The notes under the pieces are model-generated. The model made no database searches. It was not told the origin of the DNA and saw nothing but the letters and a program-made list of their open reading frames with translations. 9,192 bases of DNA from Bacteroidota bacterium (GTDB lineage: Bacteria > Bacteroidota > Bacteroidia > Flavobacteriales > Crocinitomicaceae), in the NCBI GenBank assembly GCA_029558435.1, contig JAKQEZ010000406.1, forward strand, positions 1 through 9,192, read 5' to 3'. The translations under genes were made by a program, and so were the position numbers. Below, piece after piece: positions 1-9,192 of this stretch; position 1 is the first letter of the stretch, and each line of letters begins with the position of its first letter.

Positions 1-123
1 TATAAAACACTGGATGAAATCAGTGAGTTCTTCTCTCAAACTATTCATTATCTAAGCTCAGATAATATTAAATCTATATGCAATTACAAATATATTTCTT
101 TAGATTCATTTTGGTCTATTTAA
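1..123 (+). CDS. 3' end of a plus-strand gene, possibly a transposase
   Basis: An open frame enters from the left edge and runs 40 codons to a TAA at 121-123. The visible tail begins YKTLDEISEFF and ends DSFWSI. It is short, acidic at first and then aromatic, and it is the only plus-strand coding end in the left part of the window. The style recalls the C-terminus of IS630-type transposases, but too little is present to assign a family. It stops 16 bp before the point where repeat copy A becomes recognisable, and copy A lacks the left half that the other copies have. That is consistent with an insertion that cut the repeat, although it could equally be an unrelated flanking gene. Confidence 0.5.
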   Translation, partial: YKTLDEISEFFSQTIHYLSSDNIKSICNYKYISLDSFWSI

Positions 124-138
124 ATATTCATTTTCGTA

Positions 139-253
139 TAAGAGAAATACAATCCATCAACCGGTCCCGCTGAATGGCAAATATTCAAAAGTCGCCCGGC
201 TTGGTGGTTTAATTTGGAGGATTGTTGGTGGGCTTTTGTATATTCGGGTTGAT
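139..253. repeat. Repeat element copy A (truncated) with hairpin
   Basis: From TAAGAGAAATACAATCCATC onward this matches copies B, C, D and E. It contains the CCGGTCCCGCTGAA block and the shared imperfect palindrome (about 176-247, right arm GGGCTTTTGTATATTCGG at 230-247), ending with TTGAT before the Fic-gene unit. Only about 115 bp remain; the 200 bp or more that lie to the left in the other copies are missing and replaced by the end of the plus-strand gene. Confidence 0.85.
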
Positions 254-268
254 GTTTATAGCCAGTTG

Positions 269-1375
269 TTATTCTCTATTATAGGTTGTCAGTTCATAAC
301 TTGCATTTCGTCCGCTTTCATTTGTTTGTTGCAAAATACCTTTTTCTATTAAGTTTTTGATATCTCTTAAAGCAGTGTCAGTAGATGTTTTGGTAATTTT
401 TGCCCATTTTGAAGTTTGCAATTTGCCTTCAAATCCGTCAAAAAGTTTGTTTATCATAAGGCGCTGTCTTTCGTTGATTGGGGTATTCTCGTGTAGTTTC
501 CAAAATTCAGCTTTTTGTAGTATTTTTTGTCTAGTATTTTCGGTAGAAAGCATTGCATTTTTCAGACAATTTAAAAACCAATCAATCCATTCGGTAATGT
601 CGCCCGAACTGTGTTGTGCTTTTTGTAATACTTCGTAATAGCGTTTACGTTCTTTTAAAATTTGGCTCGACATACTGTAAAAGCGCTCGCCACTACTTTC
701 AGCACGAGCAAGCAACATATCGGTTATAGCTCTGCCTATTCGCCCGTTTCCGTCATCAAAGGGGTGAATGATGATAAACCAAAAGTGAGCAATAGCGGCT
801 TTCAATACAGGGTCAAGGGTATTGTCGTTATTGAACCAATCCAAAAATTTGTCCATTTCAGTTTTTACCAATTCAGGTTTAACAGCTTTGTAATGAATTT
901 TTTCTTTGCCCATTGCTCCCGAAACTACTTGTATTTCGCGTGAGCGGTATTTGCCTGTTTCTATTTCGTAGGGTCCGCTGTGCCCTGTTGGGAAAAGTGC
1001 TGCATGCCAACCAAATAAACGCTTTTCAGTTAAGGGCAAATTGTAGCGTTGCGTAGCATCAAGCATCATTTCTACTAGGCCTTCAATGTGGCGACTACTT
1101 GGAATAAGCCCTGCGGTGTTGATTCCTAAACGCCTTGCTATGGAAGAACGCACTTGGTCGTATTTGAGCAATTCACCTTCTATTTCCGATGATTTTACGA
1201 CATCTAAAGTTAATGCTGTAAGTGTAGCTTCTTCTTTAGCCGAAAAACCTAAGGCGTTCATTTGCCCGATTGTTTTTCCTTGTATTAGTTTTACTTCACC
1301 AAACACGGCATTTATAGCTTTGTCCTGCCAGGAAAAAGCCGTCCAGTTTTTATGTTCGTAGATGTATTTTGCCAT
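269..1375 (-). CDS. Fic family protein (DUF4172-type N-terminus, Fic core, winged helix)
   Basis: This 368-residue protein is a predicted Fic-domain nucleotidyltransferase, a family that usually transfers AMP from ATP to a hydroxyl on a target protein. The N-terminal region (MAKYIYEHKNW, about 1-75) resembles the DUF4172 domain often fused to Fic. The full catalytic motif HPFDDGNGRIGR is at residues 204-215, with catalytic His204. An inhibitory-helix signature, S62-x3-E66-G67 (SSEIEG), lies upstream, which is the arrangement of class II, self-inhibited Fic proteins. Residues about 300-362 look like a winged helix (SKWAKITKTSTDTALRDIKN), so it may also bind DNA. Length is normal for the family and no key residue is missing. 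The ATG at 1375 follows a TACCTTTG promoter element by about 20 bp. The target is unknown. Its reading frame ends about 15 bp before the unit boundary at 254. Confidence 0.93.
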   Translation of the reverse strand: MAKYIYEHKNWTAFSWQDKAINAVFGEVKLIQGKTIGQMNALGFSAKEEATLTALTLDVVKSSEIEGELLKYDQVRSSIARRLGINTAGLIPSSRHIEGLVEMMLDATQRYNLPLTEKRLFGWHAALFPTGHSGPYEIETGKYRSREIQVVSGAMGKEKIHYKAVKPELVKTEMDKFLDWFNNDNTLDPVLKAAIAHFWFIIIHPFDDGNGRIGRAITDMLLARAESSGERFYSMSSQILKERKRYYEVLQKAQHSSGDITEWIDWFLNCLKNAMLSTENTRQKILQKAEFWKLHENTPINERQRLMINKLFDGFEGKLQTSKWAKITKTSTDTALRDIKNLIEKGILQQTNESGRNASYELTTYNRE

Positions 1376-1396
1376 TGTTCAAAACCAATTCCTCGG

Positions 1397-1430
1397 CAAA
1401 GGTACGAATTATTTACCGCAAATTTGCGGT
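1397..1430 (-). promoter_or_regulatory. Promoter -7 element and palindromic operator of the Fic gene
   Basis: On the minus strand TACCTTTG (1404-1397) matches the Bacteroidota -7 consensus TANNTTTG and lies about 21 bp ahead of the Fic ATG. Just upstream is a perfect 16-bp palindrome, ACCGCAAATTTGCGGT (1415-1430). The half-site TGCGGTAAA occurs again further upstream (near 1446-1454). A palindrome next to the -7 box fits a repressor operator. The winged helix of the Fic protein itself is an obvious candidate ligand, but that is inference. Confidence 0.6.
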
Positions 1431-1479
1431 GATTATTTTGTTTTTTTACCGCATAAAGAAAAGTATAGCTGAAATACTG

Positions 1480-1966
1480 TCATTCTTCGTTTGTTGGTAT
1501 ATGTTTGTCTTTGCGATCATTTTCAATTTCGGCGTCGTTTGCAAAGTAATTGTCACAAAATTCGTCTTATTCTTTTTCTGCTTCTGAAACATATTTTTCA
1601 TTTGCGGTCACCAGCTTTTCTGTTTTCTTAATGAATTATTCAAACTCTTTATTTATCTTACAAAGTTTGTCTATGATTTTAAAGTCTAAATCTCTGTAAA
1701 CTGCCGGAAATAATACTTTACTTTGATAGGGATTTGCATTGACTTCAATCATTCCTATTCCAAAAGATTGATTAAGTCTTGCCATTTCTTCGTTCAAACC
1801 ATCACTAAATTCAAATTCAACCAAATATTCATAATTTGCCCAACTTGAATTTGAAACGGCTTGAAAAAATGCTTTTTTTGTCCGTTGTCGCTATTAATTT
1901 CTCTTTTCAGTTCGTATAAACTCAATTTGAAGGTATTTGCACGGTTAAATTGATTTATGAAAAAAA
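1480..1966 (-). pseudogene. Remnant of an HrgA-like (COG2958-type) gene, 5' truncated and frameshifted
   Basis: The minus strand encodes a recognisable but broken protein. One frame reads FKLSLYELKREINSDNGQK and then, after a one-base shift at a homopolymer (T7 on the plus strand, 1873-1879), continues AFFQAVSNSSWANYEYLV and SFGIGMIEVNANPYQSKVLFPA to KINKEFE. The same frame goes on through two in-frame TAA codons (1636-1638 and 1567-1569) with coding-like text (FIKKTEKLVTANEKY, DEFCDNYFANDAEI) to a TGA at 1480-1482. The LYxxELKREI, FFQAVSNSSWA and FGIG blocks are typical of HrgA-like proteins, whose ExK core suggests a nuclease-type fold. The N-terminal part is absent: the frame closes at about 1966, next to the predicted unit boundary. 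It lies upstream of fic in the same orientation. The 62-codon open piece at 1636-1824 is only part of it. Confidence 0.75.
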
Positions 1967-1982
1967 CATGATCCTATATAAT

Positions 1983-2342
1983 GGAATCCTTTGGGATATT
2001 ACCACACTGCACAATCGAGGGTTACCGAAAGTTATCCCGAATTACCCCAAAATCCCCGCCAAATTAGGACACTACACAACACTAAATACAATCCAACCTG
2101 TTGGAACAAAGTGCCCTCCATGCAAGGTGGCACTGCCGCACCTTCCATTCCGGAAGTCAGATTATTTCTTCTTTCTTTGGCAGACAAAAGTCAGCATTCC
2201 ATCCCCAAAAAAGACAGGCATCCACCTAAGAGAAATACAATCCATCATCCGGTCTCGCTGAACACCGAATATTCAATTGTCCGGCTGGCTTAGTGATTTA
2301 ATTTGAAAGTTTTTTGGCTGGCTTTTGTATATTCGGATTAAT
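1983..2342. repeat. Repeat element copy B with hairpin
   Basis: This gene-free stretch is the second copy of the interspersed element. From about 2103 (GGAACAAAGTGCCCTCCATG) it matches copies C and E, including GCACTGCCGCACCTTCCATT and GGCAGACAAAAGTCAGC. It ends with the common palindrome (2264-2282 against 2320-2336) and TTAAT. The left 110 bp (1983-2095) are not shared with other copies. In frame with the C and D peptide, only a short GHFVP-like relic remains, so the small ORF is destroyed here. Confidence 0.85.
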
Positions 2343-2390
2343 GTTATCGGCTGCCCTGCTTTCGTCCTTTTTGTTAGGTGTCCAAATGTA

Positions 2391-2420
2391 GAAAAGCCCT
2401 GACCGTTGTGCAGTCAAGGC
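2391..2420 (-). terminator. Rho-independent terminator after the SnoaL lipoprotein gene
   Basis: Read on the minus strand, GCCTTGACTG and CGGTCAGGGC form a 10-bp stem (two G-T pairs) around a 5-base loop, followed by TTTTC. It lies 24 bp beyond the stop codon of the gene ending at 2444 and inside the same unit. Confidence 0.75.
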
Positions 2421-2443
2421 GATTTTCTTGTCTTTAAGATTGA

Positions 2444-3313
2444 TTAAAACTTTCCGTTGTCGTTTTTCCAATTCTCTTTAGAAGGGATTGGCTCAATCAC
2501 ATCCCAATGCTCGGCAATTTTTCCATTCTCAACTCTGAAGAGGTCGTAAAATGAATTGTGGTTTCCGGCAAGATGTCCTTCGCTTACTACTAAAACAAAA
2601 TTACCTTCACCTAACACTTTATGAATGGTATCATACTTCATAGTGATGCCTTGTTTTCCCCATTCTTCAAGTGCACTTCCAAGTCCGGAAAGCTGGTCAG
2701 CAATCAGAGGATTGTGTTGAATATAATTATCACCATCAAAATAGCCAGCCAGTTTTTCCATTCTGCCATTTACTAAAATGTCGTCAACAAAATTCCTGAC
2801 TAAGGTTTTGTTGGCTTCTGTTTTGTCAAGGTCTTTAATTTCAGTTGTACCATCAATCATTGTGTGTCCGCTTGGATTCGGCTGGCTTGGTGTTTCCTGC
2901 AAATTGTCCCAATGTTCAACGATTTTTCCGTCTTCAAAACGGAAGATGTCAAACCCAATTTTTGGACCGAAGAAATTGTAGTCTGTGTGTGTAAATACAA
3001 AATCACCATCCTGAAACGCCCGAACGGTATTTACTCTTGCTGAATTGGCCGGTAACTGTTGCAATAATGCGCCAAATCCTGCAAGCCCATCAGCTGCACC
3101 TAAATTGTGCTGAATGTATTTGTCAGGGTTAATGTAACCAATAGGTTCTTGTTCACCTGTTTCAATGCTTTTCAAAAGAGCAATAACTTTTTCTTTGTTT
3201 GAAAATTCCATTTTTTCTTCTTTTTGTGTTTGTGAATTAGAGTTGCCTTGATTGGTGCAAGCTGAAAATCCAACTCCTAAAATTATCGTTGCACATAGTA
3301 TCGTCTTGTTCAT
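2444..3313 (-). CDS. Predicted lipoprotein with two tandem SnoaL/NTF2-like domains
   Basis: The chosen ATG at 3313 gives 289 residues and a clean lipoprotein signal (MNKTILCATIILGVGFSAC, lipidated Cys after GFSA). A longer frame from 3358 would put 15 residues ahead of the signal and is less likely. After a Ser/Gln/Asn-rich linker come two similar halves, each like a SnoaL-type NTF2 domain. Half one carries YIQHNLGAADGLAG, ending FEDGKIVEHWDNLQ. Half two carries YIQHNPLIADQLSG, ending VENGKIAEHWDVIE. The family is a small alpha+beta cone that binds hydrophobic ligands or catalyses ring chemistry, but members with these signatures are mostly uncharacterised. The protein is probably exported and anchored in a membrane. 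It follows the AraC regulator by 83 bp and is closed by its own terminator, so the pair may be a regulator and its target. Confidence 0.85.
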   Translation of the reverse strand: MNKTILCATIILGVGFSACTNQGNSNSQTQKEEKMEFSNKEKVIALLKSIETGEQEPIGYINPDKYIQHNLGAADGLAGFGALLQQLPANSARVNTVRAFQDGDFVFTHTDYNFFGPKIGFDIFRFEDGKIVEHWDNLQETPSQPNPSGHTMIDGTTEIKDLDKTEANKTLVRNFVDDILVNGRMEKLAGYFDGDNYIQHNPLIADQLSGLGSALEEWGKQGITMKYDTIHKVLGEGNFVLVVSEGHLAGNHNSFYDLFRVENGKIAEHWDVIEPIPSKENWKNDNGKF

Positions 3314-3396
3314 TTTGAATTGATTTAAATGACGATGCAAAAGTGCAACGATAAACAAAAAGGTAAAAGGTAGAAACAGTCCTTTAAATGATACTT

Positions 3397-4269
3397 TTAA
3401 GCCAAAGCAAATTGCTCTCTAAATTCAACGGGCGTTGAATTGCTGTGTTTGCGAAAGTATTTTATAAAGTTGGTTGGCTCATCAAAGCCCAATTCAAAGC
3501 CAATTTCTTTTACACTTTCGTTAGTGTGTGCTAAAAGCCTCTTTGCTTCAAGCATTACTCTTTCGTCTATCATTTGTTTTGGCGACTTGCCCAAAATCTT
3601 TGATGTTGCTTGATTCAACCGCTTTTCGGTTACGCTTATTATTTTTGCGTAGTTGCTTACTTGTTTCAACTTGTGGTAGTTGGATTCTAAAAGATCTTTG
3701 AAGAGCATTACATAGTCAAGGTCAGCACTTTTTTTAATTTCAGTGAAATTTTGTTTCCTTCTTTCTCTTTCGGAGAGTAGTAAAAAGTTATGTAATAGAT
3801 TTTTTAGAATATGGGGCTGTGAAATGTCTTTTTCGTTTTCTAATTCAATTTCCATTAGTTGAAACAAATGGGCAAACAGCGAAGCAGTTTTGCTCATTTG
3901 AATTTGAGAAACTGAAAACAAGTCGTTGAATAAAATACTGCTCCGTAAATACTTTATGTCTGCTTCTGTGTTGCAGAAAAAACCGTCAGTAAACAAGATA
4001 GCTTTGCCGTCAAAACCACCTTTTTTGTCAAATCGCTGAACCGTGTCCTTGTTCAGAAATAAAATTGTGTTTGGTTTTATTTCTACTGGATTGAAGTCAA
4101 CCAAATGTGTCGGGCTACCTTTTTGAAACCAAAGAATATGATAAAAACCTGCCCGATGTGGAGTTGTCAATGAGTCAGAATGATTGTTGTATAATTGTCC
4201 GATGCCAACCAACTCAAATTCTTGTGGTAGTCCCTGTTTGAATGAATATTTCTTAATGTCAGACTTCAT
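3397..4269 (-). CDS. AraC family transcriptional regulator
   Basis: This 290-residue protein has an N-terminal cupin-like sensing region (about 25-110; HILWFQKGSPTHLVDF, then IKPNTILFLNKDTVQRF) and a C-terminal AraC-type double helix-turn-helix (about 200-287). The latter includes ISVTEKRLNQATSKILG, then IGFELGFDEPTNFIKYFRKH and a TPVEFRE ending, all characteristic of the family. Length is normal. The ATG at 4269 lies only 37 bp inside the unit boundary at 4306, so its promoter probably extends into repeat copy C; TACAATTG, one base off TANNTTTG, lies at the junction. It most likely controls the downstream SnoaL-domain lipoprotein gene, and perhaps itself. The inducer is unknown. Confidence 0.93.
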   Translation of the reverse strand: MKSDIKKYSFKQGLPQEFELVGIGQLYNNHSDSLTTPHRAGFYHILWFQKGSPTHLVDFNPVEIKPNTILFLNKDTVQRFDKKGGFDGKAILFTDGFFCNTEADIKYLRSSILFNDLFSVSQIQMSKTASLFAHLFQLMEIELENEKDISQPHILKNLLHNFLLLSERERRKQNFTEIKKSADLDYVMLFKDLLESNYHKLKQVSNYAKIISVTEKRLNQATSKILGKSPKQMIDERVMLEAKRLLAHTNESVKEIGFELGFDEPTNFIKYFRKHSNSTPVEFREQFALA

Positions 4270-4306
4270 TTTCTGTTGCAGGTTGTCTTTTAGGGTTGCC
4301 TATAAC

Positions 4307-4684
4307 AATTGTATTTACGACATATGGCGTAAATATCACATTAAAAGTAATCCTTTTTTCAAATACCCAAACTACCCAACGGGCTTTTTATCTCCTTTCT
4401 CAGCTTATCCGTGATATTCGTGTAAATCTCAGTTGGATATTCCGGAACAAAGTGAACACCTTTTATTGTAGCACTGCCGCACCTTCCATTCCGGAAGTCA
4501 AATTCTTTCTTCTTTCTTTGGCAGACAAAAGTCAGCAATCCATCCGGAAAAAAAGACAGGAATCCACCTGAGAAAAACACAGTCCATCATCCGGTCTCGC
4601 TGAATGGCGGATATTCAAAAGCCGCCCGGCAAAGTGATTTAAGTTGGAAGATTTTTGGGTGGGCTTTTGTATATTCGGCTTAAT
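4307..4684. repeat. Repeat element copy C with two hairpins
   Basis: This is the most complete copy together with D. At its low end is a short hairpin, TATTTACG (4312-4319) and CGTAAATA (4328-4335), which copy D shares. A block encoding the conserved small peptide follows (see 4359-4580). At the high end is the common long palindrome (4607-4627 with 4661-4679), then TTAAT. No independent gene with known function is present. Confidence 0.88.
4359..4580 (-). pseudogene. Coding segment of the small repeat-borne protein in copy C
   Basis: A 73-codon frame, opening at a GTG within the repeat, reads GGFLSFFPDGLLTFVCQ and then a basic stretch, FRNGRCGSATIKGVHFV, PEYPTEIYTNITDKLRKEI and KSPLGSLGI before the stop. 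The same text, in part, is encoded in copy D (intact ORF, central part missing) and copy E (GGLVSFLPDGWLTFVGQ, HNGKHGSATLHGGHFVPE). The nucleotide differences between C and D in the tail are mostly third-position (ATC/ATA, ACG/ACA, AAG/AAA), which suggests past selection on the protein. The upstream NIRHSARPDDGL text is in another frame here, so this copy is probably broken. Function unknown. Confidence 0.4.
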
Positions 4685-4722
4685 GTTATATACGGTTTCT
4701 CTTCTATCGATCAAGTCGTACG

Positions 4723-5031
4723 TTAGATTTTTATGTTAAGTTCAAGTCGTCCGCCAAAACCAAGTTCAATGATTTTCTGAAGTGTCGAAATACGAGCTTC
4801 TTTTAAATTGTTTTCAATTTTAGAAATGTAGGATTTAGTTGTCCCAACTTTTTCAGCAAGTTGCTCTTGTGTCATTCCCATTTCTAAACGTATGTCGTGA
4901 ATTAACGCACCAATTTTAAATGCTTCGTAACCCGCTTCAAGTTCGTCTCGTTCCTTTGTCCCACGTTTGCCGTAGTTCTTTTCTTTGAACTCTTCGAGCG
5001 TCATTAAGTTATTATTTTTCGCTTTACTCAT
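4723..5031 (-). CDS. higA: HTH (XRE) antitoxin of a HigBA-type module
   Basis: This 102-residue protein has an N-terminal charged helical arm (about 10-40, MTLEEFKEKNYGKRG) and a Cro/C1-type helix-turn-helix (about 42-97). The HTH core reads MTQEQLAEKVGTTKSYISKIEN. It would neutralise the adjacent toxin by direct binding and repress the shared promoter through the HTH. The ATG at 5031 lies 5 bp after the toxin stop, so the two are one toxin-first operon, the usual HigBA order. Internal ATG codon 10 is an alternative start. The symbol is by family, not by orthology to a named locus. Confidence 0.9.
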   Translation of the reverse strand: MSKAKNNNLMTLEEFKEKNYGKRGTKERDELEAGYEAFKIGALIHDIRLEMGMTQEQLAEKVGTTKSYISKIENNLKEARISTLQKIIELGFGGRLELNIKI

Positions 5032-5036
5032 ATCTT

Positions 5037-5405
5037 TTATGATTTGTTTATGGTATTCGTGATTTCCAATTCATATTCTGCTTTTATTTTAAGTGCCATT
5101 TCAATTTCTTTCTTTGGTGTCTTTTGAGCTTTCTTTTGAAAGCCGTTTGCTAAAACGACCAATTGTCCTTGGTCAAAAAAACAGAAAATTCTAAAAATGT
5201 CGCTTCCTAATTGAACTCGGATTTCATACAGTCCATCTGTATTCTCTAAATGCTTCAAATACGTTTCAGGAACTCTCCCTAAGTCTTCAATAAGGTCAAA
5301 AGTCCAAACTATTTTTGCTTTTACTTTCTTGTTTTGCTTAGAAAAGAAGTCTTGAAAATTGTTCTTATAAAACGCAATCTTTCTACGTTTCTGATTTTTG
5401 TCCAC
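5037..5405 (-). CDS. higB: RelE/ParE-superfamily HigB-type toxin (Gp49-like)
   Basis: This predicted 122-residue toxin belongs to the Gp49-like branch of the RelE/HigB superfamily, which are usually ribosome-dependent mRNA interferases. Visible signatures are VWTFDLIEDLGRVPETYLKHL, then DGLYEIRVQLGSDIFRIFCFF, and GFQKKAQKTPKKEIEMALKIK at the end. The frame is open from 5444, but a TATCTTTG promoter element lies inside that extension. The GTG at 5405 (MDKNQKRRKIAFYKNNF) fits the family N-terminus better, and it would leave almost no 5' leader. The antitoxin gene follows after 5 bp. In a cassette array such modules are thought to stabilise the array against loss. Confidence 0.88.
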   Translation of the reverse strand: MDKNQKRRKIAFYKNNFQDFFSKQNKKVKAKIVWTFDLIEDLGRVPETYLKHLENTDGLYEIRVQLGSDIFRIFCFFDQGQLVVLANGFQKKAQKTPKKEIEMALKIKAEYELEITNTINKS

Positions 5406-5409
5406 GACG

Positions 5410-5440
5410 CAAAGATAAGAAAGTTTCCCTAAAGTGAAAC
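5410..5440 (-). promoter_or_regulatory. Promoter and inverted-repeat operator of the toxin-antitoxin operon
   Basis: TATCTTTG on the minus strand (5417-5410) matches TANNTTTG exactly. Immediately upstream is the inverted repeat GTTTC-N8-GAAAC (5423-5427 and 5436-5440), placed where a bound HTH antitoxin would block RNA polymerase. The predicted transcription start falls on or next to the GTG start codon, implying a leaderless or nearly leaderless mRNA. Confidence 0.6.
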
Positions 5441-5507
5441 ACAAAAAATCATTTTAATTTATTTAATTCTCTGTCGTTGTGGTCTGCTGAAATCGTATAA
5501 AATATTG

Positions 5508-5610
5508 ACAATATGGCCAGTAAGTGATTGCGGGCGATTTCCTGTCAAGATACACTAAAAGCGTGCTACAACCCTCTGCAACTCTCTTAAACCCTTATTG
5601 GCTATATTGT
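5508..5610. repeat. attC-like hairpin with its own sequence
   Basis: ACAATATGGCCAGTAAG (5508-5524) and CTTATTGGCTATATTGT (5594-5610) pair over 17 positions with 2 mismatches, around a 69-base interior. The sequence is unrelated to the palindrome of copies A-E, yet it sits at the same place, between two inverted-repeat-bounded gene units and with no spacer element attached. The stop codon of the kinase gene (5595-5597) lies inside its right arm. Confidence 0.7.
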
Positions 5611-6176
5611 GTGTTGGCAGCGGGCATTTTTATTGTCTTTTGTAATTCATTAATTATCAGGTTTGGTATGTCTACCAGTTTCATACTATTTATGTCAATT
5701 TTCAAATCTGCACGTTTATATGAATCCCTAAAATAGTTATAATCAGCATTAATCTTTTTCAAATATTTCATTTTCTTTGAATCATCTAATTTTTCTATGA
5801 TAGGATTTGAATCTTTATCATAGAATGTCAATCTATCCAATATATTTTCACACGAATCATTTATCTGAATTGAATATAAGTCTTTGTCTGCTTTATGTTT
5901 TTTATAAACTTGTAGATATGAAAATTTTAATCCTGATGGTGTGCCAGAAATTACAGAATCAATGTTTTTTGAAAACAAGTAATCTAAAACTTTACTTGCT
6001 TTTTCTCTGTATACATTCATTGAAAAACATTCATCTTGAATCCTTTCGATTGGTTTATTATAATAATTCTGAATCTCTACATCTAAATCAAAGAAGGAAA
6101 AATCAATATTTTCAGCCAACAATTTCCCAATTGTTGTTTTTCCCACACAGCTAATACCAACAATATACAAAATCAT
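5595..6176 (-). CDS. Small P-loop kinase, shikimate-kinase-like fold
   Basis: This 193-residue soluble protein begins MILYIVGISCVGKTT, a Walker A loop (GISCVGKT, residues 7-14) directly at the N-terminus. DLD follows at 30-32 and SGTPSG at 78-82, an arrangement like shikimate kinase and related small-molecule or nucleoside kinases. Arg115 in NILDRL and the region ending YKRADLKIDI resemble the lid and adenine-binding end. The substrate cannot be told. The ATG at 6176 is 16 bp after the end of the frameshifted small gene, suggesting one operon. The last 8-9 residues (AANTQYSQ) are encoded by the unit boundary and the hairpin arm, so the native C-terminus was probably replaced or extended when the unit joined this site. 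Confidence 0.8.
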   Translation of the reverse strand: MILYIVGISCVGKTTIGKLLAENIDFSFFDLDVEIQNYYNKPIERIQDECFSMNVYREKASKVLDYLFSKNIDSVISGTPSGLKFSYLQVYKKHKADKDLYSIQINDSCENILDRLTFYDKDSNPIIEKLDDSKKMKYLKKINADYNYFRDSYKRADLKIDINSMKLVDIPNLIINELQKTIKMPAANTQYSQ

Positions 6177-6527
6177 AGAAACTTACAAATATTTAAAAAT
6201 CAAAATTTCTTTTTTCAAGAGGAATGGCTTTTATTTTCTCGATATTTTCTAAAATCTTTTTACATGTACTAATCAAACTATTTTTGTCCGGAGGATTGCC
6301 CCAAAATAAATCTTCTAATTAATATCATCCACTTTTAATATTTCCGTGGTAAATTTTTCAGCTTTTTCAACGTATTCAGTCTCATTTTTACATTCACTTG
6401 ATAATAAGCCATAGTGCAAAGTCAAATCATGAGTTAATTTCTCTGCTTTTATTAAAATCCCATTATATGCTTCTCTTGATAAATCATCAGTATCCATATG
6501 CAGTATTTCTTTTTGCTTGCTGCCAAC
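5613..6527. mobile_element. Candidate cassette: small gene remnant and P-loop kinase
   Basis: GTTGGCAGC (5613-5621) and GCTGCCAAC (6519-6527) are perfect inverted copies (10 of 10 if the flanking T and A are included). The left end touches the 5508-5610 hairpin and the right end touches repeat copy D. Confidence 0.6.
6193..6497 (-). pseudogene. Small acidic helical protein gene broken by a one-base deletion
   Basis: From the ATG at 6497 the frame reads MDTDDLSREAYNGILIKAEK to KVDDIN and stops at 6315-6317 after 60 residues. The +2 frame then continues immediately as LEDLFWGNPPDKNSLISTCK to PLEKRNFDF and a TAA at 6193-6195. One extra T in AATTAG would restore a single product of about 100 residues (DDINLEDLFWGNPPD), so this is a one-base deletion or a sequencing error. 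I recall similar small hypothetical proteins in Bacteroidota but know no function. The frame stays open upstream to 6584, but those codons lie in the cassette end and repeat copy D, so 6497 is preferred. The intact gene would end 16 bp before the kinase ATG. Confidence 0.75.
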
Positions 6528-6824
6528 ATCTGTATATACGCCAAATGTCGCATATATTCCGAATAAATTAACCTTTTCCCTCAAATTTCCAATCTATCCA
6601 ACGGGCTTTTTATATCCTTTCTCAGTTTCTCTGTTATATTCGTGTAAATCTCAGTTGGATATTCCGGAGTAACGTGAGCCACCCATCCCGCAAAAAAAGA
6701 GAGTAATCCACCTAAAAAATACAGTCCACCATCCGGTCTCGCTGAACACCGAATATTCATAAGTCCGGCTTGTTTAGTGATTTAATTTGGAAGATTTTTG
6801 GTGGGCTTTTGTATATTCGGGTTA
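6528..6824. repeat. Repeat element copy D with two hairpins
   Basis: This copy is homologous to C over its whole length, with an internal deletion of about 90 bp. It begins with the short hairpin TATATACG (6533-6540) and CGCATATA (6549-6556), as in C. It includes the shared GTGTAAATCTCAGTTGGATA block and ends with the common palindrome (6748-6768 with 6804-6821) and TTAAT. It contains the intact small ORF 6581-6760. Confidence 0.88.
6581..6760 (-). CDS. Repeat-borne 59-residue small protein
   Basis: An ATG within the palindrome arm opens a frame of 59 codons: MNIRCSARPDGGLYFLGGLL, then SFFAGWVAHVTPEYPTEIYT, then NITEKLRKDI and KSPLDRLEI, with TGA at 6581-6583. Residues about 11-29 are hydrophobic enough for a single membrane segment, and the tail is charged. 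The tail matches the product of copy C almost residue for residue with mainly silent nucleotide changes. Copies B and E keep only fragments. No recognisable family. The N-terminal part may be a chance fusion, because in the other copies the SARPDDGL frame stops at LYFS. It could be a real microprotein or the fossil end of a longer protein once carried by the element. Confidence 0.4.
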   Translation of the reverse strand: MNIRCSARPDGGLYFLGGLLSFFAGWVAHVTPEYPTEIYTNITEKLRKDIKSPLDRLEI

Positions 6825-6826
6825 AT

Positions 6827-7485
6827 GCGTATGGTGGGCGCACACAGCTTATTTTCCGCTTGTCCATAGTAATTTGTCAACTGCTCGATTAATGCAAATA
6901 GTTTTTAGGTCCTTTAATTCTTTTTTGAACTCAATGTCAACGATTGATGTCATTGGTTTTGTGTACTTAATAAAGTTGTCAAGGACTAATTTATTTTCTT
7001 TGCGATATTTCTTAAGATTGTCGGTGTAAACTGAGTATATATTCTCACGCTGCTTAAGTGCTTTTCTTGCAAGCGCGTCCATTGGAATTATAGACCAAGG
7101 ATTATTTAAGAACAGAACCTTCGAAGCCATTGAAGTCACAACGTGTCCACGAGTCAAGTTTGTTTTACATAGTCGTTTTGCAAACAGGTCAACGTTGTCA
7201 GCGTTTTTGCCATTTACCCAATTGATCGTCTCTTGTAACAGTCTGTCTGCCGAACCTTGCGAGATATTTCTTATTATACGGAATTCAATTAAGAAGGAAT
7301 AAAAAGTTCCAATGTCTTTTAGTAGAATGTCTGCCGAAGATATTTTACCATGTTTGAACCTTTGAAAGTTTCTGATGTAATTTAAGTCCGTATAATATGT
7401 CGAGAGGAAATTGCCTATCGCTGCGATATATTCTTTTTTCATACAGTCTGTTGTCTGCTTTAAGGAATTGTCCGCCCACTTACGC
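6827..7485. mobile_element. Candidate cassette: single hypothetical gene
   Basis: GCGTATGGTGGGCGCACA (6827-6844) follows the copy D hairpin and TTAAT. The inverted copy TGTCCGCCCACTTACGC (7469-7485) matches at all but about three positions including one gap. The right boundary coincides with the first codons of the gene inside. Confidence 0.5.
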
Positions 7486-7487
7486 AT
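6849..7487 (-). CDS. Hypothetical helical protein with an ASKxLxFxNPxxxxPxD motif
   Basis: This predicted protein has 212 residues from the ATG at 7487; a TTG at 7496 would add three. It is basic and mostly helical, with no signal peptide. The most distinctive part is near the middle: TSMASKVLFLNNPWSIIPMD followed by ALARKALKQREN. I associate this ASK...NP...P.D...RKAL pattern with uncharacterised helical proteins that have a helix-hairpin-helix or glycosylase-like look, but I cannot name a family. The gene fills its unit completely: its first codons form the right inverted repeat and its stop is about 20 bp from the left one. It therefore has no room for its own promoter and must be expressed from repeat copy E or from upstream. 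Confidence 0.7.
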   Translation of the reverse strand: MRKWADNSLKQTTDCMKKEYIAAIGNFLSTYYTDLNYIRNFQRFKHGKISSADILLKDIGTFYSFLIEFRIIRNISQGSADRLLQETINWVNGKNADNVDLFAKRLCKTNLTRGHVVTSMASKVLFLNNPWSIIPMDALARKALKQRENIYSVYTDNLKKYRKENKLVLDNFIKYTKPMTSIVDIEFKKELKDLKTICINRAVDKLLWTSGK

Positions 7488-7948
7488 AAAACTCAAAGGA
7501 ATATTGATACTCTCCCCTTTTCAACTTCAAAAAAGTAATTCAAATCAAATATCAATATTTCAAGTTGGACGAGCCCAGTCATGCCTATTTGGAGAATCAA
7601 TTTCCGTTTGTTCTAATTTTGGTGATAAATATAAGGTTTTCATAAATATTCCGGTGTAAAATGAGCCCTAGATTGTGGAGCAAAGGGAGCCACCTTTGGA
7701 GGATTCCGGAACAAAGTGCCCTCCATGCAGGGTGGCACTGCCATGCTTTCCATTGTGGAAGACAAGATATATCTTAATGCTTTGACCGACAAAAGTCAGC
7801 CATCCATCCGGCAAAAAAGATACTAATCCACCTAAGAGAAATACAGCCCATCATCCGGTCTCGCTGAACACCGAATATTCAAAAGCCCGGCTGGCTTAGT
7901 GGCTTAATTTGGAAGATTTTTGGTGGGCTTTTGTATATTCGGCTTAAT
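7488..7948. repeat. Repeat element copy E with hairpin
   Basis: This is the longest copy and it is mosaic. The first 150 bp (7488-7635) are not shared with other copies and contain a perfect 10-bp inverted repeat, AATATTGATA (7500-7509) and TATCAATATT (7550-7559). From 7645 it carries two partial, tandem versions of the TTCCGG...GTG block. It then runs through GGCACTGCC and GACAAAAGTCAGC to the common palindrome (7870-7888 with 7925-7942) and TTAAT. A peptide-coding relic (GGLVSFLPDGWLTFVGQ to HGGHFVPE) remains in one frame. On the minus strand TTCCTTTG near 7493-7500, one base off TANNTTTG, could drive the downstream gene. Confidence 0.85.
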
Positions 7949-8887
7949 GTTAGCGGTAGGTTTTATCATCAGTGGCTATTTATAAAATTATTAAATTCAG
8001 ATTTTGCAATTGGACTTTCGAACAGAGAGTCGTGTTCACCACCAGTAATTTCAACAAACTGGCTGTTCTGACAACTTATGCAACTTAATACATCTTGTTT
8101 AAAAGTTGGCCACGAGTACATTTGAATAGGAGAGTCATTTAAACCTTGAACAAACAAAATGTCAGACTTGAAACCATTTGTGAAATTGAGTAATGACCTT
8201 TGGAAATATGCGTTCGGGTTGTTTGAGACAGTTCCATACACATTTTTTAGTTTGGTACACACAGCACCAGATTGAACTTGCCCATTTTCCTCTAATTGAC
8301 ATCTATAAATAAGGTTTAATGGTCCTGGTGCATTAGCAATTACTCCATTTGTTTGATGCATTGTATTAAGTCTTGTTACCATATAGCCTCCTTGAGAGTG
8401 ACCTCCTAAGAATACTTTTTTTACGGTTATTCCTAATTCTTGACTTGCTTTATTTTTCAACCATAACAAGGCGGCTTCACATTTAACAATATTGTCACCT
8501 AATAGTATATTTTCTTGCGGATATGCAACACTTACAATCATCATATCATTTCTATCTAAAATACCCTTGAATTTGTCAAGTGTTGTATTGGCAGCAGTCA
8601 TTAAGTTACTGTCATACAATATTGTGCCGTGGAATACTAACAAGACATCAACTTCATTTAGTGCAGGTTTGTCAATTACAACATCTACATTAACATTATT
8701 ATAGGTAACAGACTTTGTTATTTTATAAGCGGTTGGAGTAGGCTGTTTTGTCGTGTTGTCTTTTATACACGAGAAAAAAAGTAATGTCAGTATCATCAAT
8801 ATTCTCATAAGACTAAATTTGTAAATATTCTGTTGGAATGTTCTCTTTTAAAATGGTTTAATCTTCTCAGACAAACTTACCGCTAAC
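7949..8887. mobile_element. Candidate cassette: alpha/beta-hydrolase lipoprotein
   Basis: GTTAGCGGTA (7949-7958) and TACCGCTAAC (8878-8887) are perfect 10-bp inverted copies. The left one follows the copy E hairpin and TTAAT; the right one directly precedes the 8894-9003 hairpin. The unit holds one gene. Confidence 0.6.
7969..8808 (-). CDS. Alpha/beta-hydrolase lipoprotein (esterase-like)
   Basis: This 279-residue predicted lipoprotein has the signal MRILMILTLLFFSC, with Cys14 as the lipidation site. The mature part has the alpha/beta-hydrolase layout: an oxyanion-type HG at 60-61 (LLVFHGT), the nucleophile elbow GHSQG at 136-140 with Ser138, an acid candidate Asp225 in QGLNDSP and the base His259 in TGGEHD. 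It resembles serine esterases or peptidases of the polyhydroxyalkanoate-depolymerase/feruloyl-esterase-like group. Cys residues at 170, 184, 243 and 246 could form disulfides outside the cytoplasm. The substrate is unknown. The ATG at 8808 gives a complete signal peptide, and about 80 bp remain between it and the unit edge for a promoter. No partner gene shares its unit. Confidence 0.88.
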   Translation of the reverse strand: MRILMILTLLFFSCIKDNTTKQPTPTAYKITKSVTYNNVNVDVVIDKPALNEVDVLLVFHGTILYDSNLMTAANTTLDKFKGILDRNDMMIVSVAYPQENILLGDNIVKCEAALLWLKNKASQELGITVKKVFLGGHSQGGYMVTRLNTMHQTNGVIANAPGPLNLIYRCQLEENGQVQSGAVCTKLKNVYGTVSNNPNAYFQRSLLNFTNGFKSDILFVQGLNDSPIQMYSWPTFKQDVLSCISCQNSQFVEITGGEHDSLFESPIAKSEFNNFINSH

Positions 8888-8893
8888 GGTTTG

Positions 8894-9003
8894 GGTATTG
8901 CCGAAGGCGGGGCGTTTCAGCAATACTGTTCATTTGAAAAACAAAAGTTGAACATAGCACAAAAGTTTCATAGAAGTTCGTCACCCCCGCTTTTGGCAAT
9001 ACC
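8894..9003. repeat. attC-like 110-bp hairpin at the right end of the array
   Basis: GGTATTGCCGAAGGCGGGG (8894-8912) pairs imperfectly with CCCCCGCTTTTGGCAATACC (8984-9003). An inner pair GTTCA and TGAAC lies in the loop region. Outside, the CGCTAAC of the hydrolase unit (8881-8887) faces GTTCAAGCG (9006-9014), complementary apart from small gaps. It is GC-rich compared with its surroundings and unrelated in sequence to the other two hairpin types. Confidence 0.7.
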
Positions 9004-9104
9004 TTGTTCAAGCGACACCTCCGGTGAAATCCCCACAAAGCTAAAATAATGCCCACAGCCTTACTTGTTATACATATTTAATCATATAAAAATAAGTAAT
9101 AAAC

Positions 9105-9192
9105 ATGAAAGGTAATGAATTTTCAACAAACAAATTGACAACCCATGCAGAAGAATGGGTCAAAAAGCTCATTCAGACCCTGACCATTAAAG
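9105..9192 (+). CDS. 5' end of a divergent plus-strand gene
   Basis: An ATG at 9105 opens 29 codons without a stop to the window edge: MKGNEFSTNKLTTHAEEWVK followed by KLIQTLTIK. The upstream 90 bp are AT-rich and gene-free, with no clear Shine-Dalgarno sequence. The text looks like the start of a soluble helical protein. It is transcribed away from the minus-strand array and sits just beyond its last hairpin, the place where an integron integrase would be expected. Twenty-nine residues are too few to claim that. Confidence 0.6.
   Translation, partial: MKGNEFSTNKLTTHAEEWVKKLIQTLTIK

Follow-up and report, generated by a model that had tools for sequence, protein, structure and literature searches.

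How do genes come to stand in units that each carry their own inverted repeats, different from those of the neighboring units? This question is raised by a contig of a Bacteroidota bacterium (JAKQEZ010000406.1, positions 1-9,192, from assembly GCA_029558435.1; we refer to this whole stretch of 9,192 nucleotides (nt) as the window). A first-pass annotation of its sequence had described five units with such private repeats and had proposed an integron-like array of gene cassettes. Our analysis upholds both points. Very probably, to judge from comparisons of sequence, the window belongs to an array of cassettes in an integron-like system of Bacteroidota. The evidence is that the ends of each unit pair privately, that the attC-like hairpins covary, that copies of a cassette share the same boundaries, that arrays adjoin an integrase and an attI-like site, and that attC-like sites and integrase occur in the same genomes. 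The system appears to work like an integron, yet by the feature that we tested (the additional domain of integron integrases) it is not an IntI integron. Most of our matches are from G001, the chromosome of Candidatus Parvibacillus calidus (CP058702.1; Saprospiraceae).

Cassette boundaries and attC-like sites

The five units of the window with private inverted repeats are at 2343/4306, 4685/5504, 5613/6527, about 6821/7492, and 7949/8887. The right arms given by the first-pass annotation lay 8 to 23 bases inside those that we found. Four of these pairs can be scored and have 4, 3, 5, and 5 matches among the five bases after GTT. In the fifth (about 6821/7492), roughly 15 bases match by eye, and the left arm lacks a clean GTT.

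Any single pair is weak evidence, and it is the pattern over all 60 adjacent pairs, from nine genomes and the window, that is decisive. For each pair, we compared bases 4-8 of the lead (the start of the cassette) to the R'' site of its own unit. We found that 36 of the 60 pairs matched at 5 of 5 bases and 41 at 4 or more, as compared to 4.5% and 14.8% of 3,540 mismatched combinations. In a permutation test with all 60 pairs, the observed sum was 225; none of 20,000 permutations reached this value, and the best gave 167. Perfect pairs were found in G001 (18 of 33), in eight other genomes (16 of 23), and in the window (2 of 4). Among further adjacent junctions from a simple hairpin scanner, 6 of 16 in G429 and 4 of 11 in G392 were paired. 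(Because this scanner gave 40 matches in a reversed-sequence control, our counts use a covariance model where possible.) A search for the best partner of a single lead was not used as evidence, because 33 known leads scored 12-25 and so overlapped with 150 random GTT leads, which scored 16.1 on average and 25 at most.

The pairs that matched at 4 or more bases also bear on which strand is folded. On the gene-antisense strand, these 41 pairs contain 42 G.T wobbles versus 2 A.C mismatches, and with DNA parameters this strand gave the better fold for 15 of 19 hairpins. Together, these asymmetries suggest that the folded strand is the bottom strand, as in integrons. All 41 leads start with GTTR, with a purine (A or G) as the fourth base in every one. 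The fifth base is a pyrimidine (T or C) in 20 of them, and the eighth is G in 37. The R'' base opposite lead position 11 is T in all 41 pairs, and the lead base there is G in 27. The R box is thus GTTRNNNG in these leads. The canonical integron core is GTTRRRY / RYYYAAC, and the leads depart from the GTTRRRY that the first-pass annotation had cited for integrons.

At junctions in G001 where no IS91-like element (see below) separates the cassettes, the hairpins are typically 117-121 nt long, from AAC to GTT. Nineteen aligned attC sites share 19 base pairs, 16 of which have both bases changed in one or more sequences. (Two pairs, a G.T and a T-A, are invariant.) The attC-like sites are conserved in structure rather than in sequence. 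A covariance model built from the aligned sites (R1) gave 114.7 bits for window positions 8885-9008, a sequence that helped to build the model, and 24.1 bits (expectation value E of 9e-5) for 5499-5615, which was outside it.

Copies of cassettes show where their boundaries lie. Cassette X, of about 0.8 kilobases (kb), is present at three sites in G001, with a partial copy as a neighbor. Cassette Y, of about 3.15 kb, has four copies in G001 (one of them just 69% alike) and another in L012. In every copy of X and Y, the hairpin 3' of the gene travels with the cassette, and the copy starts at the lead. At the other flank, the copies of X adjoin three different kinds of sequence and those of Y four (another hairpin, an attI palindrome, or a further copy), and the third copy of Y (Y3) and the copy in L012 have this flank in common. 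A cassette therefore consists of a gene and the attC-like hairpin 3' of it, which is the usual order, and we infer from the copies that the two move as a unit. Our first model, in which the cassette owned the hairpin to its right on the plus strand (with the gene inverted relative to attC), was dropped, as it is the left hairpin that travels with the cassette. Separately, a 2.2-kb repeat is present in three copies in G001:C1:940437-947925 and also at A 589320 and B 886671, with 97-99.9% identity.

The first cassette of the largest array in G001 (G001:C1:1000014-1009336; L063, L096) adjoins attI and is about 10 kb long. According to PADLOC models, its genes include those for a SIR2-Argonaute fusion, a HEC-01 pair, and a type III methylase; cassettes can be as long as about 10 kb and can bring several defense genes at once. 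This cassette also contains an open reading frame (ORF) of 882 amino acids.

The integrase, its attI-like site, and their distribution

The largest array in G001 ends at an intact gene for a tyrosine integrase (1009934-1011085, minus strand, 384 amino acids). Its stop codon is followed by the palindrome TATTTACGCCATATGGCGTAAATA, then five bases, and then the GTT of the first cassette, so that an attI site lies beside the integrase and the cassette is joined to it at G/TT. There are 14 of these attI-like palindromes of 24 base pairs (bp) in the stretches of G001 that we fetched and 2 in the window, and for 15 of the 16, the AAC of an R'' site is five bases away. Across the family, the palindrome and GTT are 3' of the integrase at about 11 of 30 loci, G001 included (assigned by eye; the integrase ORF was not found at 3 of the 30). 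Also by eye, the palindromes in the window and at 600 kb in G001 are followed by remnants of the C terminus of the integrase, and the window holds two attI/integrase remnants.

R240, H329, R332, H355, and Y364 are invariant in 62 aligned relatives of the integrase. These are the residues expected in a tyrosine recombinase, and we assign them as its putative catalytic residues. The protein is not of the IntI type, because the additional domain of IntI near patch III is absent: the alignment with IntI4 (2a3v) is in two pieces and leaves IntI4 residues 214-247 without a counterpart, while XerA aligns in one piece. The integrase also missed the cut-offs of both NCBI models for integron integrases (204.8 bits for TIGR02249, whose cut-off is 265, and 206.6 bits for NF040815, whose cut-off is 220), and it has an N-terminal region of about 100 amino acids before the core. 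The best matches to its predicted structure (mean pLDDT 86.4, pTM 0.54) were XerA and IntI4, with query TM-scores of 0.40-0.51. The accessible part of PMC9668308 treats the additional domain as defining for an integron integrase, and that of PMC8138268 reports that the insertion is incompletely conserved in its integron subgroup, yet essential for function.

By analogy to IntI, the integrase would act on the folded bottom strand, excising cassettes as circles and inserting them at the G^TT of attI or attC. It is co-directional with the array in G001, G126, G191, G146, G135, G025, G099, and G392. Contigs start within 400 nt of the 3' side of the integrase for 21 of 59 minus-strand matches and within 400 nt of its 5' side for 3 of 90 plus-strand matches; such breaks just 3' of the integrase would be expected of an attI side that is variable or repeated.

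Matches to the attC class are present in 87 of 199 genomes of the family (E 1e-3). In the class of G001, which we take to be Bacteroidia, 204 of 295 genomes have such matches (E 1e-6). In two control classes, presumably Chloroflexota and Bacillota-like (from record titles and recall), the counts are 1 of 199 and 5 of 198, each including a seed genome with Parvibacillus-like contigs. (Records L001 and L016, whose titles are Chloroflexi OLB14 and Bacillota, contain array contigs like those of Parvibacillus; contamination during binning is the probable cause.) Relatives of the integrase (E up to 1e-30) are present in 122 of the 199 genomes of the family and in 165 of the 295 of the class. Within the class, the two co-occur: 148 genomes have both, 56 have attC alone, 17 have the integrase alone, and 74 have neither (odds ratio 11.5, p = 2e-18). 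The named relatives include proteins from Saprospiraceae, Lewinellaceae, Chitinophagaceae, Bacteroidales, and Dysgonamonadaceae, and among the 240 matches listed, most of which are nameless, no name says integron integrase.

Several observations weigh against an integron-like system. Nineteen of the 60 pairs match at fewer than 4 of 5 bases, perhaps because of missed junctions. The integrase is divergent from the array in G429 and G121, and contigs from G106, G068, and G191 (C48) lack the expected relation of integrase and attC and fit neither topology simply. Four control genomes besides the seed (G806, G823, G847, and G872, in the class of G493) have attC matches, one of them at 117.9 bits. 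Co-occurrence is weak within the family, with 60 genomes having both, 27 attC only, 62 the integrase only, and 50 neither (odds ratio 1.8, p = 0.035). Also, recombination is deduced from the arrangement of the copies and sites, with no event observed. Finally, the first-pass annotation had named fixed, colinear units in related strains as a result that would speak against an integron, and this is partly what we see: the near-identical contigs in L001 and L016 are largely colinear with region D of G001, with differences in a type I specificity gene and in a tandem repeat. As compared to G001 3309265-3310609, L001 is near-identical except for the variable parts of an apparent type I restriction specificity gene.

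An IS91-like element within attC-type sites

The private pairs had been described as lying next to long imperfect hairpins. Such hairpins, of about 115 nt, are indeed present at all five left arms, but they are a single repeated sequence family (D2/D3) and not specific to their units, and they are the right end of an IS91-like element. The long spacers that had seemed out of place in an integron are remnants of this element and of attI/integrase copies. When we searched genome contigs for the left-arm hairpin pattern, 24 stretches matched, 15 of them in G001, where there are 33 matches (three of them fragments) in several clusters.

In G001, the element is about 2.5 kb long and consists of a left end (TTCAAGCGACACC), a tyrosine recombinase, an IS91-family transposase, and a right-end hairpin that ends with TTAATG. 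The transposase of the intact copy matches NF033538 (381.9 bits) and contains Y2_Tnp and Zn_Tnp_IS91 domains; an HUH Y2 transposase with a zinc domain is what is expected of the IS91 family. The recombinase has 313-316 amino acids and is interrupted by stops in 9 of the 11 copies that we scored. It is 30-38% identical to five array integrases (135-182 bits) and 33% identical (79 bits) to an Xer-like protein of G001, which is the only Xer-like protein in this comparison, as a second one (L073) gave no ORF and was left out.

Members of the IS91 family insert next to GTTC/CTTG. Here, 15 of 16 left ends are preceded by TG, and 13 of the 16 start at the GTT of an attC. For 33 of 35 right ends, the next bases are TT; G is the last base before the TT in 30 of these, and the following base is mostly A or G. 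Conversely, 13 of the 32 matches to the attC model in G001 and the window are broken at their GTT by the element, whose side and orientation do not differ among the 13. Relative to the genes, the insertion point is on the R'' side of attC, where by integron mechanics the opposite strand would be cut. The ends of the element also form a private pair (GTTCAAGCGACACC / GGTCTCGCTGAAC), and the right-end hairpin at 7708..7949 in the window scores as an attC (20.7 bits on the minus strand versus 7.3 bits on the plus strand; other right-end hairpins score lower).

This element, with its HUH transposase and a tyrosine recombinase related to the integrase, has invaded the array. We lean slightly towards entry into attC as an inverted cassette, by the element's own recombinase and via the other strand of attC. 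Alternatively, the HUH transposase might target the element to attC.

The features of the window are listed in Table 1. All of its main genes are on the minus strand, as had been noted. It had also been noted that the unit with the Fic protein fits the array least well, and indeed the match between its ends is limited to GTTTATA/TATAAAC at 254/1921; that this unit is a cassette is unproven. An IntI-type or other tyrosine recombinase had been expected beyond position 9192. The window's last 186 nt do contain the left end of an IS91-like element, including the beginning (first codons) of the gene for its recombinase, but the integrase of these arrays is not, by its sequence, of the IntI type. 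A second and shorter class of hairpin (GGAATATTGATAC..GTATCAATATTTC) follows R'' at some junctions, as at 7493-7564 in the window and at B 885689 and 911758 in G001. A search of the window against Rfam gave no match, and nothing was found in plasmids or, with a pattern scan, in viral contigs.

Table 1. Features of the window, with positions in nt
Feature	Position	Strand	Remark
IS91-like right end (right-end hairpin), remnant	139..254	+	82% over 117 nt vs G001 element
Candidate cassette: Fic protein, 269-1375 (DUF4172 + Fic)	254..1921	-	right boundary weak
IS91-like remnant: 3' end of transposase gene and right-end hairpin	1946..2343	+	80% over 410 nt vs element 2128-2536
Cassette: SnoaL-like protein, 2444-3358; AraC-type regulator, 3397-4269	2343..4306	-	private repeats at both ends
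attI-like palindrome TATTTACGACATATGGCGTAAATA	4312..4335	.	5 nt from cassette R''
Remnant of integron-like integrase gene, 3' end (repeat D5)	4359..4455	-	assigned by eye, C-terminal residues
IS91-like right end	4444..4685	+	81% over 243 nt
Cassette: Gp49-type toxin-like, 5037-5444; helix-turn-helix (HTH) antitoxin-like, 4723-5031	4685..5504	-	private pair
attC-type hairpin between two cassettes, no element inside	5499..5615	+	24.1 bits
Cassette: shikimate-kinase-like P-loop protein (ORF 5595-6176); small ORF, 6315-6584	5613..6527	-	private pair
Second attI-like palindrome	6533..6556	.	palindrome, compare 4312..4335
Second remnant of integrase C terminus	6581..6677	-	88% identity to 4359-4455
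IS91-like right end	6671..6827	+	85% over 159 nt
Cassette: 215-amino-acid orphan protein (ORF 6849-7496, no Pfam match)	6821..7492	-	left arm without clean GTT
Short hairpin after R''	7493..7564	+	kind also present in G001 after other R''
IS91-like right end	7708..7949	+	90% over 242 nt; hairpin attC-like on minus strand
Cassette: alpha/beta-hydrolase-like protein, 7969-8808 (below Pfam cut-offs)	7949..8887	-	private repeat GTTAGCGGTAGG / CTTACCGCTAAC
attC-type site, broken at its GTT by element at 9007	8885..9008	+	114.7 bits
IS91-like left end and first tyrosine recombinase codons, cut by window end	9007..9192	+	95% over 186 nt

Alternative explanations and comparison with known systems

Some of these features could be had without an integron-like system. 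The IS91-like element is abundant in G001 and both ends of each unit carry inverted repeats, as if the units were individual small transposons with their own terminal repeats that had piled up at a hot spot. This is very improbable, as the repeats are specific to each unit, no transposase was identified by Pfam among the nine window proteins that we scanned, a single covariance family includes the hairpins of unrelated units, and there is an integrase with an attI-like site at array ends. It is also quite improbable that the element itself built the array, with the integron-like features being secondary. ISCR elements do carry neighboring genes along by one-ended rolling-circle transposition, every one of the window's five left arms is next to a right end of the element, and we found 35 right ends versus 16 left ends. 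However, a search for the element in the arrays that we fetched from 11 other genomes gave no match, and these arrays have the same private pairing (16 of 23); also, the element's recombinase (E 1e-60) is present in 2 of 199 family genomes, as compared to 87 of 199 for the attC class. That the hairpins are transcription terminators would account for their location just 3' of genes, but it would make the private repeats a coincidence, which is scarcely credible given the permutation test, the common boundaries of repeated cassettes, and the adjacency to attI.

We therefore return to the integron-like system, and to whether it has been seen before. The literature that we searched, including the accessible part of PMC2426708, does not describe it; subscription journals and preprints were outside this search, so novelty is unproven. 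Surveys for integrons depend on IntI and on models of attC that come from other taxa. In the accessible parts of these papers, PMC8352920 gives attC models for 11 taxa, Bacteroidetes not among them; PMC9024848 reports one complete integron in Bacteroidetes, from Salinibacter; and PMC8618304 and PMC9668308 include Bacteroidota among the carriers of integrons and do not describe the type found here. If the system recombines, then a platform for gene capture that is present in roughly two of every three sampled genomes of the class (204 of 295) has been overlooked. On balance, and by a small margin of confidence, we favor the broader proposal that a second kind of integron, whose integrase lacks the additional domain of IntI, moves folded-site cassettes unnoticed across G001's class, and that an IS91-like element, behaving as an inverted cassette, enters the attC sites of this integron by means of a related recombinase. 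If this is true, then the additional domain of IntI would be dispensable for cassette recombination, and the extra recombinase gene of IS91-like elements would gain a function.

The system resembles integrons in that a gene and its folded 3' site form a cassette; the lead is complementary to its own R''; the boundary is at G|TT; a tyrosine integrase is beside an attachment site; and the genes share one orientation and include defense, toxin-antitoxin, and orphan genes. Unlike in integrons, the integrase lacks the additional domain of IntI and has the N-terminal region of about 100 amino acids, the R box reads GTTRNNNG and the paired arm is longer, the attI-like site contains a 24-bp palindrome, and the integrase is often co-directional with the cassettes. 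Spirochaete integrons also have a reverse-oriented intI, according to the accessible part of PMC9668308, but theirs is an IntI, whereas here the integrase is without the IntI domain and the topology varies by genome.

The element, in turn, resembles the IS91 family in its transposase (NF033538, with Y2_Tnp and Zn_Tnp_IS91). Some members of that family carry an extra tyrosine recombinase gene. In contrast to the IS91 family, the element described here is found in attC-type sites, its right end is attC-like, and its recombinase is related to the integrases of the arrays. Other mobile elements that target the attC sites of integrons are IS1111-attC elements and group IIC-attC introns. These use different enzymes, while the element in these arrays combines an HUH transposase with a tyrosine recombinase.

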